Shown here: positions 5,696 through 59,058 of the stretch, piece by piece | Numbering within the stretch: position 1 is the stretch's first letter | Layout: each line of letters starts with the position of its first letter | Assembly: GCF_003253995.1 (NCBI RefSeq) | Contig: NZ_QKZL01000005.1 | Coordinates: 248,001 to 312,000, forward strand | Direction of reading: 5' to 3' | Source of the DNA: Palleronia aestuarii | GTDB lineage: Bacteria; Pseudomonadota; Alphaproteobacteria; Rhodobacterales; Rhodobacteraceae | Length of the DNA: 64,000 bases | Program-made: the position numbers and the translations under genes | Notes under the pieces: generated by a model | Told to the model about the DNA's origin: nothing | Databases searched by the model: none | The model's input: only the letters and a program-made list of their open reading frames with translations

Positions 5696-6665
<970 letters not shown>

Positions 6666-6669
<4 letters not shown>

Positions 6670-7619
6670 GACCGGCCGGCGAGCCTGCGGGCCGTCTTGG
6701 ACCAGCCGAACCGCTTTTCCCGCTCGCGCGGATCCGTCGTCACCCGGACCCAGTTCGCGAAGAGGTTTATCGAAAGGACCGTGATCGCGATGGCGAGACC
6801 GGGAAAGGTCACGAGCCACCACGCGACATAGACGTAGTCGCGCCCGCTCGCCACATCGAGCCCCCAGCTCGTGGCCGGAGGCTGCACGCCCAGCCCGAGG
6901 AAGGAGATCGCCGCCTCCGCGAGGACGACGTTGGTGAATTCGAGGATCGCGACGGTGAGGAGGGGGGAGACGAGGTTCGGAAGGATGTGGCGCAGGATGA
7001 TACGCGCGGGACCGCATCCGACGATCTCCGCCGCCTCGACGTAAGGCGCCGCGCGGACGGACATCACCGTGCCGCGCACGATACGCGCGTAGATCATCCA
7101 GTTCGTGAGCGCGAGCACGACGACGATCGTCGTGAGGCTCGGGCCCACGATGGAGACGATGAGCAGGATGAGGAGGATGCCGGGGAAGGACACCTGGATG
7201 TCGACGAGCCGCATCAGGATCGAGTCGGTCCGGCCGCCCACGTATCCCGCGACGAGGCCCACGATCACGCCAAACGTCCCAGAGAGGAGCACGACCGCGA
7301 CACCCACGAGAAGCGTTGCGCGCGCCCCCCAGATGATCCGGCTGAGCACGTCGCGGCCGAGCGCGTCGGTCCCGAGGAGATGCGCCGGGTTCCCGCGGGG
7401 AAGCCAGGCGGGGGGCGCGAGCCGCGCGAGCACGGATTGCGCGGCCGGATCGTGCGGCGCGAGCAAGGGCGCGAAAATTGCCATGGCGACGATGCCGACC
7501 AGGACGAGGAACCCGATCAGGCCGGGTACGTCCTCGCCGAGCTCGGCTGCGAAGGCGCGGAGGCGCGTCCCGTTACGGGAGCGACGGGACGGGGCCTGAC
7601 GGGCGGCGGAATCAGCCAA
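6666..7619 (-). CDS. Peptide-type ABC transporter permease (DppC-like)
   Basis: Inner-membrane permease with the N-terminal OppC segment and BPD_transp_1 fold. It has the DppC hallmark LLGTDALGRDVLSRIIWGAR and the coupling EAA-like loop EAAEIVGCGPARIILRHILP. A TTG at 7619 lies in the last codons of the preceding permease (8-base overlap) and would give 317 residues; I chose it for translational coupling, and there is no clear Shine-Dalgarno. About six membrane segments are expected. It forms the channel with the DppB-like protein. Confidence 0.85.
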
Positions 7620-35656: not shown

Positions 35657-37258
35657 CTATTCGGCCGCGAGGGTCTCCATATCGATATCGTCTTCGCGTT
35701 CCTCGGCCCGGCCATAGCCGCCGCCACCGGGCGTCACGACCTCCAGCCATTCGCCCGCCCGCAGGACACCGCGGCCCCGCTCGAACGGCGCGGCCTCAGG
35801 TGAGACGCGGAAGCTCCCGTGGCCGCCTTCGCCACCGCCCTGCAGGCCCCAGGACCGCGAACGGTTGCGCGAGATATCGACGCCGACCATGCAATCCTCC
35901 GTGGCGCGGTAGACGCGCCTGAGGCCCATCCCGCCGCGCTGCCGACCCGGTCCGGCCGATCCGTCGACGAGTTCGTAGCGCTCGAGGATCAGGGGATACT
36001 CGACCTCGAGCGCCTCCACGGGCAGGTTGGAGGTGTTGGTGGTATGGACGTGGATGCCGTCGAGCCCGTCCGCATCCGGGCGCGCACCGCCGCCGCCGCC
36101 GATCGTCTCGAGATAGATCCAGTACTCGCCCGCCGAAGGCCCGCTCGTTCGCGTGCCGGAAAAGAGTGCCACGGTGCAGGCCGAGTTGGTGCAGGCGGAG
36201 ACGCGTTCCGGCACGGCTTGCGCGAAGGCCCCGAGGATCAGGTCGGCGACCCTCTGGCAGGTCTGGACCCGCCCGTTGACGGCCGCGGGATGCGCGCAGC
36301 TTAGGAGGCTTCCGTCGGGGGCGGTGACCGTGATCGGCCGCGAGAGGCCCGCATTCGGCAGGACCGTCGGATCGACGACGGATTTCACGATATAGTAGAC
36401 CGTGGCGAGAAGCGCGGTGCGGGTCATGTTGATGCCCGTGCGCGTCTGCGGCGGTGCCTCGAAGTCGAGCGCGATGTCGCCACCCGCGATCGTGATCGTC
36501 ACGGCAAGGGGCAGCGGCTCGGGCACTTCGAGATTGTCGAAGACGTCCTCGAACCTCCAGCGCCCGTCGGGCAGGGCCGCGAGCCCCGCGCGCATCTTCC
36601 GCTCCGCATAGTCGAGAAGTGCCTCGCCCGCGGCGAGGACCGTCTCCGCCCCGTGGCGCGCGCAGAGTTCCTGGAAGCGCTGCACGCCCACGCGGTTCGC
36701 GGCCCGCTGCGCCCGCAGGTCGGAAAGCCGTTCCCGCGGCACCTGGCAATTGTGCAGGATGAGGTTCAGCACGTCTTGCTGCATCTCGCCCGCGCGGCAG
36801 AGGCGGATCGGCGGGATCCGCAGCCCTTCCTGGTAGATATGTGCATGGCCGCGATCGACGAAATCGGAATGATGCGCGAGATTCACCGTCCAGGCGACCA
36901 TCCGGCCGTCGACGAAGATCGGCTCCGCGAGCACGATGTCGGGCAGGTGGGTGCCGCCCCCGAGATAGGCGTCATTGCCGACGAAAGCGTCGCCGGGCCG
37001 CATCTCTGCCGGATCGTGTTCGGCCATCACCATCGGGATGAAGTCGAGGAAGCTGCCCAGATGCACCGGAACGTGCTCCGCCTGGCAGAGCGTGCGCCCC
37101 TCCAGATCGAAGAGCGCCGTGGAGCAGTCGCGCCGCTCCTTGATGTTGGTCGAGTAGGACGCCCGGACGAGCGCCTCGCCGGTTTCGTCGACGATCGAGG
37201 AGAGCGCGGCGCCGATCACTTCCACGGTGATCGGATCGAGCGACGTGGCACGGGTCAT
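35657..37258 (-). CDS. hyuB: Hydantoinase B / oxoprolinase family protein (HyuB)
   Basis: The 533-residue B subunit of an ATP-dependent cyclic-amide hydrolase (N-methylhydantoinase, 5-oxoprolinase or acetone-carboxylase-like group). Family blocks: TNIKERRDCSTALFD, HLGSFLDFIPMVM, PGDAFVGNDAYLGGGTHLPD and the late SAGPGRQRGGMGLRR. ATG overlaps the HyuA stop as ATGA, so the two subunits are made together. In this family HyuA phosphorylates or activates the amide and HyuB completes hydrolysis. Confidence 0.9.
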   Translation of the reverse strand: MTRATSLDPITVEVIGAALSSIVDETGEALVRASYSTNIKERRDCSTALFDLEGRTLCQAEHVPVHLGSFLDFIPMVMAEHDPAEMRPGDAFVGNDAYLGGGTHLPDIVLAEPIFVDGRMVAWTVNLAHHSDFVDRGHAHIYQEGLRIPPIRLCRAGEMQQDVLNLILHNCQVPRERLSDLRAQRAANRVGVQRFQELCARHGAETVLAAGEALLDYAERKMRAGLAALPDGRWRFEDVFDNLEVPEPLPLAVTITIAGGDIALDFEAPPQTRTGINMTRTALLATVYYIVKSVVDPTVLPNAGLSRPITVTAPDGSLLSCAHPAAVNGRVQTCQRVADLILGAFAQAVPERVSACTNSACTVALFSGTRTSGPSAGEYWIYLETIGGGGGARPDADGLDGIHVHTTNTSNLPVEALEVEYPLILERYELVDGSAGPGRQRGGMGLRRVYRATEDCMVGVDISRNRSRSWGLQGGGEGGHGSFRVSPEAAPFERGRGVLRAGEWLEVVTPGGGGYGRAEEREDDIDMETLAAE

Positions 37259-52779: not shown

Positions 52780-55296
52780 TCAGGACAGGCCATCCTTCGC
52801 CGCGCGGGTCGACTGGACGGGCAGAGCCTTCGTCACGAGATGGTCGATCCGCAGGTAGATGCGCCATACGAGGACGCCCCCGATCACCGATCCGATGACC
52901 GAGACGGTCGGGTGTGTCAGGCCAACCTTTGCCAGAGCCGACGCGAACTGGAAATGCGTCAGGTAGATCGCCAGCGAACCTGCCGCGACCGAACGAATTG
53001 GTATGGCGAGAGGGCGCGGCATTCGAAGCTTCGGGCTCCAGATCATGGCGAATGTCACGACGGCGAAGAACGGCGAGACGGCGATGCCGTAGAACCCCAT
53101 GATCCCCGACGCGGCGATCAGCGCGACCCACATCTTCTGGCCGCTACTCCTCGCCGCCTGCGCCACCATTCCGAGCAGGAACACCCATCCCAGGAGAAAC
53201 GGTAGACGCCGATAGAGATGATCGGTGTCGAGTACGGAATCGAGGGCGATCGCTGCAAGGGCAGCGCACGCGGCCGTCACGGCCAGCGCGGTGAACCCCT
53301 TCATCGCGAAGAACGAACGGACGGACGGGCTCAGGAGGGGAAGCGAAATCAACAGGAGGCATTGCAGGTAGACTTCGACGAACCAGGCGCCTCCGGGAAC
53401 GTCCGGGCCGACCCAGTTCGAGACGAAGAACGTCGCAGGCCACGATCCATAGCCCGTAAGCGCCCAATTCGCGGCACCCATCAGCGCAGTGAAGATCCCG
53501 ACACGCAGGCCCAAAGTGACTATCGGGGCGATGCTGCCCGATCGCAACACGGACGGAAGCGTGAACGCGCCAAACGCCCAGCCCGCGACGAGGAAGAGTG
53601 ACAATGCCCCGCCGCCTCCGTAGGCGAAAAGCTGAAAATGGTCCGCGACGATCGCAACGATCGCCAGGGCGCGCACGAGCGTGGGCATGTCCACGGCCAC
53701 GGTGGAGCGCCGTGACGCCGACAGCGCATCCAGGTCCCGCGCCGGCAAGTTCTCCCATCCGTCAGGCAAATCGCCGACCGATGCCTCGAGATCAAGCGCC
53801 ACGGAGAGGTAATTCAGGCTGTCGCCCCCGAGATCGATGAAGCTCGTGTCGTCGTCGATGTCGGACGCGGGAAAATGCACGCGAAAGATTTCCGCCGCTG
53901 TCATATCGCGACCGACGGGTCGCACGGGTGGGGTGGCGGAGGCCGAACCCGCTTCCGCGACGGCCCGCATCCCGAGCCCGTCGATCTTGCCATTCGCGTT
54001 TCTCGGCAGGTCGGTGACGGCATGGACGCGCACCGTTCCGCGCGGGAACTTGAGCCATCGATCGATCTCGTCCGCCAACCGGGCGGCATCCTCGGATGGG
54101 ATCCCGGCCACGACATGGATCTCTTCACCGATGGCGATAGATGCCGCGGAAATACCGTCGCGCTTCACCTTCGCGTCCAGCTCGTCGAGAGAGATCCGGT
54201 AGCCGAAAAGTTTGACGAACCGGCTTTGCCGCCCGGTGATCGCGAAGAGTCCGTTGGGCTGCCGTCGCGCGAGGTCCCCGGTATGCAAGACACCCGGCCC
54301 TTGCCCCAATGCGAGATCGGCGGCCGAACTCGCGTAACCCATCATGACGTTGGGCCCCTCGTAGACGAGCTCCCCTTCCTCTCCATCGGGCAGGATATCG
54401 CCCGCGTCGTTGCGGACGGAAAGCGTTCCCCCGGGAATGGCGCGGCCGATGCATCCGGGATTGGCCTGGGCTTCTTCCGGCGGCAGATAGGCCATCCGGG
54501 GCGCCGCCTCCGTTTGACCGTACATCACGACGAAGGACCAGCCTTCGGCCCGGGACCGCGCGCTCCACGCTTCGATCGCGGCGGGCGGCATTTTCCCTCC
54601 CGCCTGGGTCATCATCCTGAGTGTCTTGAGCCCGGACGTATCCACCCGGCTCTGCTCGATCAGGTCGAACGTGTGCGGGACCCCTGCGAGACTCGTGCAG
54701 CCGCGGGACTTGAACGTCTCCCAGAACTCCGGGGACGATACGGAGCCGGGCATCAGCACGATCTCCGCGCCCGCCAGGAGGTGCGAGTTCACCACCGACA
54801 TGCCGTAGGAGTACTGGAACGGCAGTGACATGGCGGCTTTGTCATCGCCCGTGATCCCGAGATACGCGATGATCGACTCGGCGTTCGCGCGGATATTGGC
54901 ATGTGACAGCCGGACGCTCTTCGCCGCGCCCGTAGAGCCGGAGGTCGAAAGGAGAACCGCCAGGTCCGCATGGATCTCCGGCGGGACGCCTTCGTCGATC
55001 TCAAGCAGATCCTCGCCGGGACTGTAATCATACGTGACCGGAAAAGCCTGCCCGGAACCGGCGGCAGACCCATCGACGAGCGCGACCGGGCACCGTATCG
55101 AGAGAGCGGCGAGGTAGGCGACGTACTGCCGGTAGGTCCCATCGCATCGCAATAGAAAAACACCACGTCCGCACGTGATCCTCTCCGCGAATGACGTGAC
55201 ATCCGCGGAGAGGTCGGCATATGTGACTGTCCAGCCGCCGGGACCGGAAAACGCAACTCGATCCGACGAACGGTTTAACCAACAAATATCCGACAT
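52780..55296 (-). CDS. Adenylation domain - carrier domain - membrane acyltransferase-like fusion
   Basis: A single 838-residue protein. Residues 1-440 form an ANL adenylation domain: A3 loop LLSTSGSTGAAKSVRL (115-130), A5 MYGQTEAA (258-265), A7 HTGDLARR (338-345) and the catalytic Lys in PRNANGKID (K437). Residues about 464-530 are a carrier domain with the phosphopantetheine Ser in DLGGDSLNYL (S493). From about 538 to 830 is a polytopic hydrophobic domain resembling Acyl_transf_3: a first helix ending in VADHFQLF (H553) and about ten segments. It probably activates an acid, loads it on its own carrier and transfers it across or at the membrane. Acyl substrate and acceptor are unknown. No other biosynthetic gene adjoins it. 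Confidence 0.85.
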   Translation of the reverse strand: MSDICWLNRSSDRVAFSGPGGWTVTYADLSADVTSFAERITCGRGVFLLRCDGTYRQYVAYLAALSIRCPVALVDGSAAGSGQAFPVTYDYSPGEDLLEIDEGVPPEIHADLAVLLSTSGSTGAAKSVRLSHANIRANAESIIAYLGITGDDKAAMSLPFQYSYGMSVVNSHLLAGAEIVLMPGSVSSPEFWETFKSRGCTSLAGVPHTFDLIEQSRVDTSGLKTLRMMTQAGGKMPPAAIEAWSARSRAEGWSFVVMYGQTEAAPRMAYLPPEEAQANPGCIGRAIPGGTLSVRNDAGDILPDGEEGELVYEGPNVMMGYASSAADLALGQGPGVLHTGDLARRQPNGLFAITGRQSRFVKLFGYRISLDELDAKVKRDGISAASIAIGEEIHVVAGIPSEDAARLADEIDRWLKFPRGTVRVHAVTDLPRNANGKIDGLGMRAVAEAGSASATPPVRPVGRDMTAAEIFRVHFPASDIDDDTSFIDLGGDSLNYLSVALDLEASVGDLPDGWENLPARDLDALSASRRSTVAVDMPTLVRALAIVAIVADHFQLFAYGGGGALSLFLVAGWAFGAFTLPSVLRSGSIAPIVTLGLRVGIFTALMGAANWALTGYGSWPATFFVSNWVGPDVPGGAWFVEVYLQCLLLISLPLLSPSVRSFFAMKGFTALAVTAACAALAAIALDSVLDTDHLYRRLPFLLGWVFLLGMVAQAARSSGQKMWVALIAASGIMGFYGIAVSPFFAVVTFAMIWSPKLRMPRPLAIPIRSVAAGSLAIYLTHFQFASALAKVGLTHPTVSVIGSVIGGVLVWRIYLRIDHLVTKALPVQSTRAAKDGLS

Positions 55297-55782: not shown

Positions 55783-57066
55783 ATGCTGATCCGATCGCTT
55801 TTCGTCACGGGCGCCCTTTGCGTCGCCGCACAGCCCGGTGTCGCCCAGGAAACCGACTGCCCGGTGAAGGTGGGCGTGCTGCACTCGCTGTCCGGGACGA
55901 TGGCGATCTCCGAGACGACGCTGAAGGACGTCATGGAGATGCTCATCGAGCAGCAGAACGAGGCGGGAGGCGTCCTCGGATGCGATATCGAGGCCGTCGT
56001 CGTCGATCCGGCCTCGGACTGGCCGCGCTTCGCGGAACTCGGTCGTCAGCTCCTGACCGAGGACGAGGTCGACGTGATCTTCGGCTCCTGGACCTCGGTC
56101 AGCCGTAAATCCGTCCTGCCGGTGCTCGAGGAACTGAACGGGCTGATGTTCTACCCCGTCCAGTACGAGGGCGAGGAGAGCTCGAAGAACGTCTTCTACA
56201 CCGGCGCGGCGCCGAACCAGCAGGCGATCCCGGCGGTCGACTATTTCCTGGAGGAGCTCGGTATCGAGAAATTCGCGCTGCTCGGGACCGACTACGTCTA
56301 CCCGCGCACGACGAACAACATCCTCGAGAGCTACCTCCAGGACAAGGGGATCGCGTCGGAGGACATCTTCGTCAATTACACGCCCTTCGGACATTCCGAC
56401 TGGTCGACGATCGTGTCTGACGTGGTCGAGCTCGGCTCCGACGGCTCCCTCGTTGGCGTGATCTCGACGATCAACGGCGACGCCAATATCGGTTTCTACA
56501 AGGAACTTGCCGCACAAGGGATCGATGCAGCCGACATTCCGGTCGTGGCCTTCTCGGTCGGCGAGGAAGAGCTTTCGGGCCTCGACACGTCGAACCTCGT
56601 CGGTCACCTCGCCGCGTGGAACTACTTCATGAGTGCCGACACGCCCGAGAACGAAGAATTCATCGCCGCGTGGCATGACTTCACCGGCGACGAGAACCGC
56701 GTGACGAACGACCCGATGGAAGCCCATTACATCGGCTTCAACATGTGGGTGAACGCGGTCGAGGAAGCCGGGACCACGGATGTCGATGCAGTGCGCGAAG
56801 CGATGTGGGGCCAGGAATTCCCGAACCTCACGGGCGGCACCGCCGTCATGGGCACCAATCACCACCTGTCGAAGCCGGTATTGATCGGCGAGATCCGCGA
56901 GGACGGTCAGTTCGACATCATCTCGGAAACCGACCCCGTGCCGGGCGATGCCTGGACCGATTACCTGCCCGACAGCGCCGTCCTGACCTCCGACTGGAAG
57001 GAGCTCGATTGCGGGATGTACAACACCCGGACCGAGACCTGCGTCCAGCAGACGTCGAACTACTGA
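55783..57066 (+). CDS. urtA: Urea ABC transporter substrate-binding protein UrtA
   Basis: Periplasmic urea receptor of 427 residues, signal peptide about 1-21 (PGVAQ-ETD), AGAGGAA 9 bases before the ATG. UrtA-specific blocks: VGVLHSLSGTMAISETTLKD, IFGSWTSVSRKSVLPVLEE, MFYPVQYEGEESSKNVFYTG and the late EAHYIGFNMWVNAVEEAG. C-terminal Cys in LDCGMYNTRTETC may form a disulfide. First gene of urtABCDE, which imports urea at low concentration; urease genes do not follow, so they must be elsewhere if present. Confidence 0.95.
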   Translation: MLIRSLFVTGALCVAAQPGVAQETDCPVKVGVLHSLSGTMAISETTLKDVMEMLIEQQNEAGGVLGCDIEAVVVDPASDWPRFAELGRQLLTEDEVDVIFGSWTSVSRKSVLPVLEELNGLMFYPVQYEGEESSKNVFYTGAAPNQQAIPAVDYFLEELGIEKFALLGTDYVYPRTTNNILESYLQDKGIASEDIFVNYTPFGHSDWSTIVSDVVELGSDGSLVGVISTINGDANIGFYKELAAQGIDAADIPVVAFSVGEEELSGLDTSNLVGHLAAWNYFMSADTPENEEFIAAWHDFTGDENRVTNDPMEAHYIGFNMWVNAVEEAGTTDVDAVREAMWGQEFPNLTGGTAVMGTNHHLSKPVLIGEIREDGQFDIISETDPVPGDAWTDYLPDSAVLTSDWKELDCGMYNTRTETCVQQTSNY

Positions 57067-57123
57067 CAGGCGATGCCAAGCGGCGCGCGCCCCGGTGCGC
57101 GTCGCACGTTCGGAATCTTGCTT

Positions 57124-59058
57124 ATGCTGCGTCTGCTCCTCGCCCTTGCCATCACCCTGATCGTGGCCCCCGCCGCCGCGCAGGACGATCTGCAAGCCAT
57201 TCTCCAGACCCATGCCGAAGAGGTCGCGAACCCCGGGCGCCGCAGCGTCGGCGCGCTGATCGACGATTTGCTCGCCTCCGACCTGCCGTCCGTTCCGGTG
57301 TTCCTCGACGCGTGGCAGGATCGGGAGGTTGTACGCGACAGCCGCGACGGACGCTTCTTCATCGCGGGCGATGAAGAAGATGGGGTTGTGACGCTTCTGG
57401 ATATCGCGAACGGGGACGAGATCGGGACGGCGCCGGAGGCCGCGCTAGAGGAGGTGCGGCCGAACGGCGGCGTGCGCCGCGTGATCGGCGGAGCACTGGT
57501 GCAATTCCGCCTGAGCGATCCCGATCCGAGGGCGCGGCAACGCGCGCTCGCCTCGATCGCGCGACGTCCCGACGCGGACCAGATCGACCCTTTGCGCGCT
57601 TCGATCGAAGAGGAAGACGATGCCGGTATCCTGGCCGAGAAGGAACGGCTCCTGAACATCCTCGTCGCGCGGTTCGGCGCGACAACGGAGGATCGGATTG
57701 CCGCCATCGAGGCCTTGGCGGGCGAGATCAATCCCGACGCGCGCGCCGCGCTGAGTGAAATCCTCAGGACCGAGGACCGCGTCGTTCCCGCCGGGGAGGC
57801 GACGGACGGCAACGTGGCGGGTACGCTAAGCCTGCCGCGGGCTGAAGCCTATGGCCGGCTGGTCGATGCGGAGCTGGCGCCGCCTGGCGTGTCGCCCGCA
57901 GAGATCCGCGACACGCTCCTGGCCAATGTCGAGGCAGGCGCGGTGGCGGGCACGCGGCTTGCGGATCTCGACACCGATACCGCCCGCCATGCCGCCTACG
58001 AGCGATTGTCGGAGACCGGGCGCGCGGCGCCGTTCGTCTCCGATGAGGAGATCGACGCGGCCATCGCGGCGCACAGCTTCGAGGCGGTCTTTCTGGAGGA
58101 GGACGAAGCCGTCATCGATGCCGCGCGCGCGACGCTTGGCTCGGTCGAGCGACAGGTGGCGCTGAACCGCGCGGCCGATCTCGGGCTCGATGCGCTGTCG
58201 CTCGCCTCGATCTACTTTCTCGCCGCCATCGGTCTCGCGATCACCTTCGGGGTTATGGGGGTCATCAACATGGCCCATGGCGAGTTCATCATGATGGGCG
58301 CCTATACCGGCTACGTCGTCCAGCAATTCGTCCCGGACTACACCCTGTCGCTGGTCATCGCCCTGCCGCTCGCCTTCATCGTCGCCGCCGCCGCGGGCGT
58401 GGCGATGGAGCGCCTGGTGATCCGGCATCTCTATCACCGTCCGCTGGAGACGTTGCTTGCGACGTTCGGCATATCCATCGCGCTGCAGCAGCTTGCCAAG
58501 AACATCTTCGGCACGCAGGCCCGGCCGCTGACCTCGCCCGACTGGCTGGGCGGTCAGCTGGTCGTCAACGAACTGGTCTCGATCAGCTATATCCGCATCG
58601 CGATCTTCGTTCTTGCGCTGGCCTTCCTCGGGCTCCTGCTCTTCATTCTCAACCGCACCCGGCTGGGGCTCGAAGTGCGCGCTGTGACGCAGAACCCCGG
58701 CATGGCGGCGTCGATGGGGATCGACCCCGACCGTATCAACATGATGACATTCGCCCTCGGCTCCGGCATCGCCGGGATCGCCGGCGTGGCCATCGGCCTC
58801 TATGCGCAGGTCACGTCCGAGATGGGCGCCAACTACATCGTGCAGAGCTTCATGACCGTGGTCGTCGGCGGTGTCGGGAATGTCTGGGGGACCCTGGCCG
58901 GCGCGGGCCTGATCGGCGTGCTGCAGAAGCTGATCGAGGGGATGAACCCGTCGAACACGCTCGCCGCTCAGACCTACATGATCCTCTTCATCATTCTCTT
59001 CATCCAGTTCCGGCCCCGCGGCATCGTCGCGCTTCGCGGCCGCGCCGCGGAGGGCTGA
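57124..59058 (+). CDS. urtB: Urea ABC transporter permease UrtB (long form)
   Basis: A 644-residue permease. I prefer ATG 57124 because it begins directly with a signal-like helix (LLLALAITLIVAPAAAQ); ATG 57073 would add 17 residues. Residues about 20-355 are a soluble, probably periplasmic, HEAT-like region; a LivH-type permease follows (ITFGVMGVINMAHGEFIMMG, RAVTQNPGMAASMGID, VGGVGNVWGTLAGAGLIG). The long N-terminal part is normal for proteobacterial UrtB. UrtC starts 4 bases after its stop. Confidence 0.93.
   Translation: MLRLLLALAITLIVAPAAAQDDLQAILQTHAEEVANPGRRSVGALIDDLLASDLPSVPVFLDAWQDREVVRDSRDGRFFIAGDEEDGVVTLLDIANGDEIGTAPEAALEEVRPNGGVRRVIGGALVQFRLSDPDPRARQRALASIARRPDADQIDPLRASIEEEDDAGILAEKERLLNILVARFGATTEDRIAAIEALAGEINPDARAALSEILRTEDRVVPAGEATDGNVAGTLSLPRAEAYGRLVDAELAPPGVSPAEIRDTLLANVEAGAVAGTRLADLDTDTARHAAYERLSETGRAAPFVSDEEIDAAIAAHSFEAVFLEEDEAVIDAARATLGSVERQVALNRAADLGLDALSLASIYFLAAIGLAITFGVMGVINMAHGEFIMMGAYTGYVVQQFVPDYTLSLVIALPLAFIVAAAAGVAMERLVIRHLYHRPLETLLATFGISIALQQLAKNIFGTQARPLTSPDWLGGQLVVNELVSISYIRIAIFVLALAFLGLLLFILNRTRLGLEVRAVTQNPGMAASMGIDPDRINMMTFALGSGIAGIAGVAIGLYAQVTSEMGANYIVQSFMTVVVGGVGNVWGTLAGAGLIGVLQKLIEGMNPSNTLAAQTYMILFIILFIQFRPRGIVALRGRAAEG

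Follow-up and report, generated by a model that had tools for sequence, protein, structure and literature searches.

The locus analysed here raises the question of whether one polypeptide can activate a carboxylic acid, load it onto a carrier of its own and pass it to an acceptor through a membrane acyltransferase. The window, by which we mean the whole 64,000-nucleotide stretch of the Palleronia aestuarii genome under study, holds a frame for which the initial annotation proposed such a chain, consisting of an adenylation (A) domain, a carrier or thiolation (T) domain and a polytopic membrane domain resembling the AT3 acyltransferases (PF01757).

Gene Organization and Genomic Context

The 838-residue frame at 52780-55296 is real and lies on the minus strand; the plus strand of the same interval contains stops. 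The orthologue in a genome of the same genus is 840 residues long and has its start codon at the equivalent place. The G+C content of the gene, 0.60-0.65 against 0.62-0.69 in its surroundings (1 kb steps), does not stand out. The features of the locus are as follows.

52780..55296, minus strand: A-T-AT3 fusion gene, 838 aa, a single-gene unit (open frame; orthologue start at the same place)
53977..55296, minus strand: adenylation domain, residues 1-440 (PF00501)
53986..53988, minus strand: K437, catalytic lysine (A10)
53716..53934, minus strand: carrier (thiolation) domain, approximately residues 455-527 (PF00550; helices in the model of carrier plus AT3)
53818..53820, minus strand: S493, phosphopantetheine attachment site in LGGDSL
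52783..53706, minus strand: AT3-type membrane domain, residues 531-838 (PF01757 below cut-off; structural model; weak HGSNAT-like fold)
53638..53673, minus strand: R-x10-H motif in TMH1, R542 to H553
52954..52956, minus strand: H781 in the IYLTH motif of a late helix
51882..52649, plus strand: GntR/FCD regulator, convergent neighbour (Pfam; apparently outside the system)
55783..57066, plus strand: urea/amide-type substrate-binding protein, divergent neighbour (Pfam; apparently outside the system)

The gene had been described as having no other biosynthetic gene beside it, and this is correct. One flank carries the GntR/FCD regulator followed by a class II aldolase and a peptide ABC system, and the other carries an ABC operon of the urea/branched-chain type, divergent from the fusion gene. 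Neither the regulator nor the urea-type binding protein appears in the 20 kb surrounding the 61% orthologue, and operon partners were rejected as candidates, the fusion gene itself being all that the two loci have in common over the 20 kb compared. Across 20 fusion loci, a common gene order appears mainly in Microbacterium, Agromyces and Nocardioides, where it includes an ABC transporter; it is not read as functional. The permease gene 3′ of the urea-type binding protein (57073-59058) has approximately 370 residues preceding its BPD_transp_2 domain. Elsewhere in the window, ARAGORN calls an 87-base tRNA-Ala (cgc) at 36532-36618, which is probably spurious because Rfam at gathering scores has no match in the whole window.

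The Adenylation Domain and the Activated Acid

The A domain matches the Pfam AMP-binding family with 158.9 bits (E 2.1e-46). Its conservation was examined in an alignment of 28 A-T proteins of Alphaproteobacteria and Actinomycetota, the window's included, in which no pair is at least 90% identical and from which L043 and L055 were left out; 26 of the 27 other sequences are 27-37% identical to the window's protein. The adenylation motifs TSGSTG (118-123), YGQTE (259-263) and TGD (339-341) are invariant or nearly so, and K437 is Lys in 28/28. With TSGSTG, YGxTE, TGD and a C-terminal Lys, the fusion protein has the features of an ANL adenylation enzyme.

Position 163 bears on the nature of the acid. 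It is Ser in the window's protein and S, C or I in 27/28, and in a phmmer alignment it corresponds to an Asp of 3wvn, which we take to be VinN and whose Asp is presumably the amine-binding residue. Since this Asp is missing in 27/28, the acid is unlikely to be an amino acid as in Dlt, and amino-acid activation of the Dlt kind was set aside for this branch. The sole exception among the 28, L011/L085, has the C-A-T-AT3 architecture and an A domain of a different kind.

The stand-alone relatives of the A domain provide a second indication. They have common neighbours in 19 of 23 loci; in L059, the one locus scanned in full, these are ACP, SDR, LuxE and LuxC, which also adjoin a 444-aa A protein in a genome of the same genus (G001). 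This company would indicate acyl rather than aminoacyl chemistry, and the activated acid is most likely, judging from these sequences, one without an alpha-amino group. Unlike the fusion, these operons keep the carrier as a separate gene and have no fused AT3 domain. Operons of the ACP-SDR-A-LuxE-LuxC kind occur in L054-L080, for example at L059 6788-11808, and at L177 4691-9907, their family names being taken from L059 and, by tblastn, L177 only. DegT aminotransferase genes are present in L059 and L070, and a glycosyltransferase gene in L061.

The Carrier Domain and its Proposed Loading

The carrier region matches PF00550 (PP-binding) with 22.2 bits against a cut-off of 20.8 and has both the GGDSL motif and its attachment Ser, S493, which is Ser in 28/28 aligned sequences, the window's protein included. 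Both S493 and K437 are thus found where the initial annotation placed them, and their loss across homologues, which would have spoken against the proposal, was not seen.

The window's genome contains one PF01648 match, by eye AcpS, and no match to the 4PPT_N model and so no Sfp-type transferase by this model, which is positive in only 3/14 control genomes. In 14 other genomes with fusions, split pairs or longer versions, PF01648 is matched once in 9, twice in 4 and not at all in 1, the last being only 79% complete. In many of these genomes, loading therefore probably falls to AcpS, as it does for DltC to judge from a title cited in PMC12838833.

The Membrane Domain

The initial annotation assigned the C-terminal third to an acyltransferase fold, and a lack of any such match over residues 538-838 would have counted against it. 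A match exists, although a weak one: PF01757 (Acyl_transf_3) covers residues 540-810 with 26.8 bits (E 3.3e-6), below the cut-off of 31, and the same-genus orthologue, at 27.3 bits, is also under it. It is backed by relatives of the same architecture that exceed the cut-off, namely L039 (36.8 bits), L144 (32.9), L052 (32.3) and L042 (107.2). Besides PF01757, no Pfam family matches the membrane region at E up to 1, MBOAT included, which is the family of DltB.

AT3 acyltransferases such as OafA, OafB, Oac and OatA have in common an R-x10-H motif in the first helix of the membrane domain, in which Lys may take the place of Arg; in OafA, mutagenesis shows that neither end of the motif can be dispensed with (excerpt of PMC7448272). 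Counts for this domain refer to 27 sequences, since in one of the 28 aligned proteins (L053) the AT3 domain is not in the same chain. R542 is Arg in 26/27 and H553 is His in 27/27, and the motif is kept in 18/18 fused or split domains, the window's among them. W638 is kept in 27/27 and H781 in 26/27. The FxxxxG motif of TMH2 is absent in its usual form: G572 is kept in 27/27, but in the window's protein a Leu stands five residues before it and a Phe four before it.

A model of residues 531-838 built from the 27-row alignment is helical and confident (pLDDT 88.9, pTM 0.86), as is one of the carrier and AT3 domain together, residues 455-838, as a single body (pLDDT 86.7, pTM 0.87). A Foldseek comparison of the 531-838 model with the PDB gave no match at E < 0.001. 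Among the best 50 of 350 matches, probability exceeded 0.6 only for HGSNAT entries and 8jkv/8jl4 (best probability 0.91, TM 0.41-0.48, E 0.3 and up), whereas the first row by E-value was the unrelated TTYH3, at probability 0.16; 8jkv is named HGSNAT in an excerpt of PMC12423673. The AT3 assignment is supported by the relatives that exceed the cut-off, by the presence of R-x10-H and by the confident model of residues 531-838.

Distribution, Split Pairs and Longer Versions

Fusions turned up in Rhodobacterales, Sphingomonadales, Phenylobacterium, a Hyphomonadaceae MAG, Microbacterium, Agromyces and Nocardioides when 100 related genomes were searched and named genomes were scanned once. By sequence, the A-T-AT3 protein is a member of a scattered, conserved family that has split and C-A-T versions. 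The first of two AT3 subtypes found among the fusions gave 18 matches in 15 of the 394 genomes of the window's family, with the best five candidates per genome scored, so that weaker single-domain relatives could be missed; 17 of the 18 lie in frames of 828-1366 aa and the remaining one belongs to a split pair (G287), of which it is the AT3 gene. The rare, patchy presence of the family, with Actinomycetota among Alphaproteobacteria, suggests horizontal spread. Among the matches listed in the open-licence literature, by titles and abstract starts, none concerned A-T-AT3 or C-A-T-AT3 proteins.

A quick tree of 61 A domains separates 37 A-T proteins from 24 stand-alone A proteins on a branch with SH-aLRT 95. 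This tree excludes L011, L055 (cut by the contig's end) and the divergent L145-L147, and it includes, as a long branch, the 444-aa same-genus A protein, which lies in an ACP-SDR-A-LuxE-LuxC operon. An earlier tree of 54 rows lacked that protein and several other A-only rows and gave 36 versus 18 with SH-aLRT 99. AT3 is part of the same polypeptide in 35 of the 37 A-T proteins and is encoded by an adjoining gene for the remaining two. In the 54-row tree the second AT3 subtype falls on two separate branches, which suggests that the membrane domain was swapped while the A-T/AT3 pairing was retained. The divergent A-AT3 proteins L145-L147 (in G269, G337 and G243) are further variants, and Sphingomonas solaris has, at L042 7716-14163, two convergent A-T-AT3 genes with a stand-alone AT3 gene between them, the carrier GGDSL of the second fusion being read by eye.

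Two split pairs are known from this set. In G287, an A-T frame (L141 4295-6262) overlaps an AT3 frame (6255-7271), both starts being the first possible codon. In Donghicola mangrovi, 79 bases separate the end of the AT3 gene (L053 369-1421, 92.6 bits) from the A-T gene that follows it. GGDSL and the carrier Ser are kept in both split A-T proteins; Pfam names the carrier in that of D. mangrovi and not in that of G287. Both pairs stand beside glycan genes, with a sugar transferase, a GT4 and a sulfotransferase in one case and a GT25 in the other.

Three genomes of the window's family, G011 (same genus), G269 and G144, also encode longer frames of 1351-1426 residues in which a related AT3 domain follows an NRPS-like module at the C-terminal end. 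The longer frames are located as follows.

L085 8387-12655: C-A-T-AT3 frame
L155 5949-10001: C-A-T-AT3 frame
L156, minus strand: C-A-T-AT3 frame

In the G011 protein, Pfam recognizes condensation and adenylation domains, with carrier (19.8 bits) and AT3 (24.5 bits) both below cut-off; in that of G269, it recognizes condensation and adenylation before AT3 and names no carrier; the domains of the G144 protein were read by eye only. All three contain a carrier-like DSL motif. Their A domains have Asp where the window's protein has Ser (by eye in G269 and G144), and so amino acids are probably activated there.

The Acyl Donor

The donor question turns on a motif at TMH3. In simulations, RxxR holds the 3′-phosphate of CoA, and the counterpart of R542 also contacts this phosphate in OafB (excerpt of PMC9833829); RxxR at this position is highly, not absolutely, conserved in AT3 proteins. 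We scanned for R..R..P downstream of R-x10-H, using as controls full-length or partial-match AT3 proteins from the window's and related genomes. RxxRxxP was found in 0/18 fused or split domains, in 15/25 full-length controls and in 0/7 controls with partial matches. The comparison of 15/25 with 0/18 gives a Fisher p of 3.9e-5, which is too small because related rows are not independent, and the absence is not unique to the fusions, as 10/25 full-length and 7/7 partial controls also lack the motif. This control set, 32 loci selected by Pfam, is preferred to a first one that gave 20/21 controls against 0/23 fused domains and that had been picked with a model built from motif-bearing proteins. 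RxxR without the following xxP occurs in 8/23 fused domains, and the window's protein has neither form. By eye, KARR replaces the motif in L140 and L142, single-domain relatives of the second fusion subtype.

The absence of RxxRxxP fits a carrier-held rather than a CoA-held donor, but does not prove it. From these sequences we infer an acyl-carrier donor acting in cis, whose phosphopantetheine arm could bring its phosphate into contact with R542.

Proposed Mechanism and Alternatives

The most likely mechanism, which we favour by a modest measure, is carrier-fed transfer through the AT3 domain. The A domain, to judge from its motifs, would activate a carboxylic acid with ATP, and the acid would go onto the phosphopantetheine arm of S493. 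From the cytosol, the arm would enter the AT3 domain where the pantetheine half of acyl-CoA sits in ordinary AT3 enzymes, and near H553 the acyl group would pass to an acceptor on the periplasmic side. The whole protein would thus be an inner-membrane machine for acyl transfer that is complete in itself. We propose that R-x10-H has been kept, and the TMH3 part of the CoA 3′-phosphate pocket has not, because the donor is tethered. Conservation, the two split gene pairs and the missing CoA-type motif support the original proposal of activation, loading and transfer in one polypeptide. A broader reading is that in one lineage AT3 was turned into a carrier-fed release domain for A-T or C-A-T modules, giving up part of the CoA 3′-phosphate site and, in a single step, both releasing its product and carrying it across the inner membrane; we consider the case for and against this evenly balanced.

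The main alternative keeps the chemistry and changes the acceptor to a small molecule or lipid, so that the product would be a secreted or membrane-bound small acylated compound instead of a surface polymer. The solitary fusion gene, with no neighbour shared with the 61% orthologue in the 20 kb compared, is in line with this, as are the 30/40 fusion loci that have none of seven glycan markers, the apparent resemblance of the C-A-T-AT3 versions to lipo-amino-acid makers and the precedent of CmmA, an AT3 protein that acetylates a macrolide (excerpt of PMC9558356). The position of both split pairs beside glycan genes and of several fusions in polysaccharide loci argues the other way, and we regard this alternative as rather unlikely.

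Less probable still is that the AT3 domain continues to use acyl-CoA, with the A-carrier part making or delivering a co-substrate or representing a separate activity. Acetyl-CoA is the donor in vitro for several AT3 proteins (CmmA, TmaT and OatA), and a review favours acyl-CoA over acyl carriers as the AT3 donor (excerpt of PMC9558356); R542, whose counterpart contacts the CoA phosphate, is kept in 26/27, and the 10/25 ordinary full-length controls without RxxRxxP weaken the argument from that motif. Against this reading are the absence of RxxRxxP from all 18 fused or split domains and an A-T/AT3 pairing that persists through splitting and, in the tree, through replacement of the AT3 subtype. 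We give very little weight to a reading in which the loading enzyme is merely anchored by an AT3 relative that is dead or confined to transport: the weak Pfam score and the loss of RxxRxxP and of the usual TMH2 Phe position would suit it, but the retention of R542, H553, W638 and H781 in 26, 27, 27 and 26 of 27 sequences, despite an overall identity to the window's protein of 27-37% in 26 of the 27 others, would be needless for an anchor.

The Acyl Acceptor

The proposed carrier-fed transfer by the fusion protein leads to the question of its acceptor, the least supported step. The annotation's suggestion of a surface glycan is plausible, and glycosyltransferases, a flippase, a pyruvyl transferase, a sugar transferase or sulfotransferases are found near several relatives, with extra stand-alone AT3 genes adjoining four. 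Enrichment is not significant, however: the seven glycan markers, partly drawn from the fusion loci and so biased in their favour, occur near 10/40 fusion loci (the window's included, L053 being outside the 40) and in 2/20 control stretches hand-picked in nine of the genomes (Fisher p 0.30). The 16 kb around the window's gene contain none of these markers. Although suggestive by eye, the glycan neighbourhood is consequently not taken to prove the acceptor, for which an envelope glycan or glycolipid is the leading but unproven candidate.

Relation to Known Systems

A Gram-negative precedent for adenylation, carrier and transferase acting in series is the AlmE-AlmF-AlmG system of lipid A glycinylation. 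Unlike the fusion, it consists of three proteins, uses an amino acid and has a transferase of another family. The Dlt system is similar in that an acid is adenylated, loaded onto a carrier and handed over to a membrane acyltransferase (excerpt of PMC12838833), and the comparison drawn in the initial annotation holds at the level of this logic. It does not extend further: Dlt is made up of separate proteins and acts on an amino acid, whereas the fusion lacks the anchoring Asp (gone in 27/28) and its membrane domain matches AT3, not MBOAT.

The accepted model for AT3 acyltransferases, transfer from a cytosolic thioester to an outside acceptor, is the same as that proposed for the fusion, which differs in its likely donor, a carrier in cis, and in lacking RxxRxxP. 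The bacterial AT3 fusions named in excerpts of PMC9558356 and PMC9833829 involve SGNH or alanine racemase domains, and "other domains" are mentioned there for Eukarya. HGSNAT and the TmAT superfamily, which carry out transmembrane acyl transfer (excerpt of PMC12423673), offer the nearest solved fold, weakly and among the best 50 of 350 matches; unlike the fusion, HGSNAT uses acetyl-CoA and has no A or carrier domain.

Implications

As a natural fusion with its own carrier and without the CoA-type motif, this protein makes the AT3 donor question testable in one polypeptide, and it provides a single-gene handle on non-acetyl groups of envelope molecules. As the C-A-T-AT3 versions suggest, an NRPS-like module may be able to release its product across the membrane. 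Taken from sequence, the scattered family suggests that a known kind of membrane acyltransferase can take a built-in carrier instead of coenzyme A. If true, there would be a carrier-fed route of transmembrane acylation apart from DltB, one that may be shuffled behind different adenylating modules.
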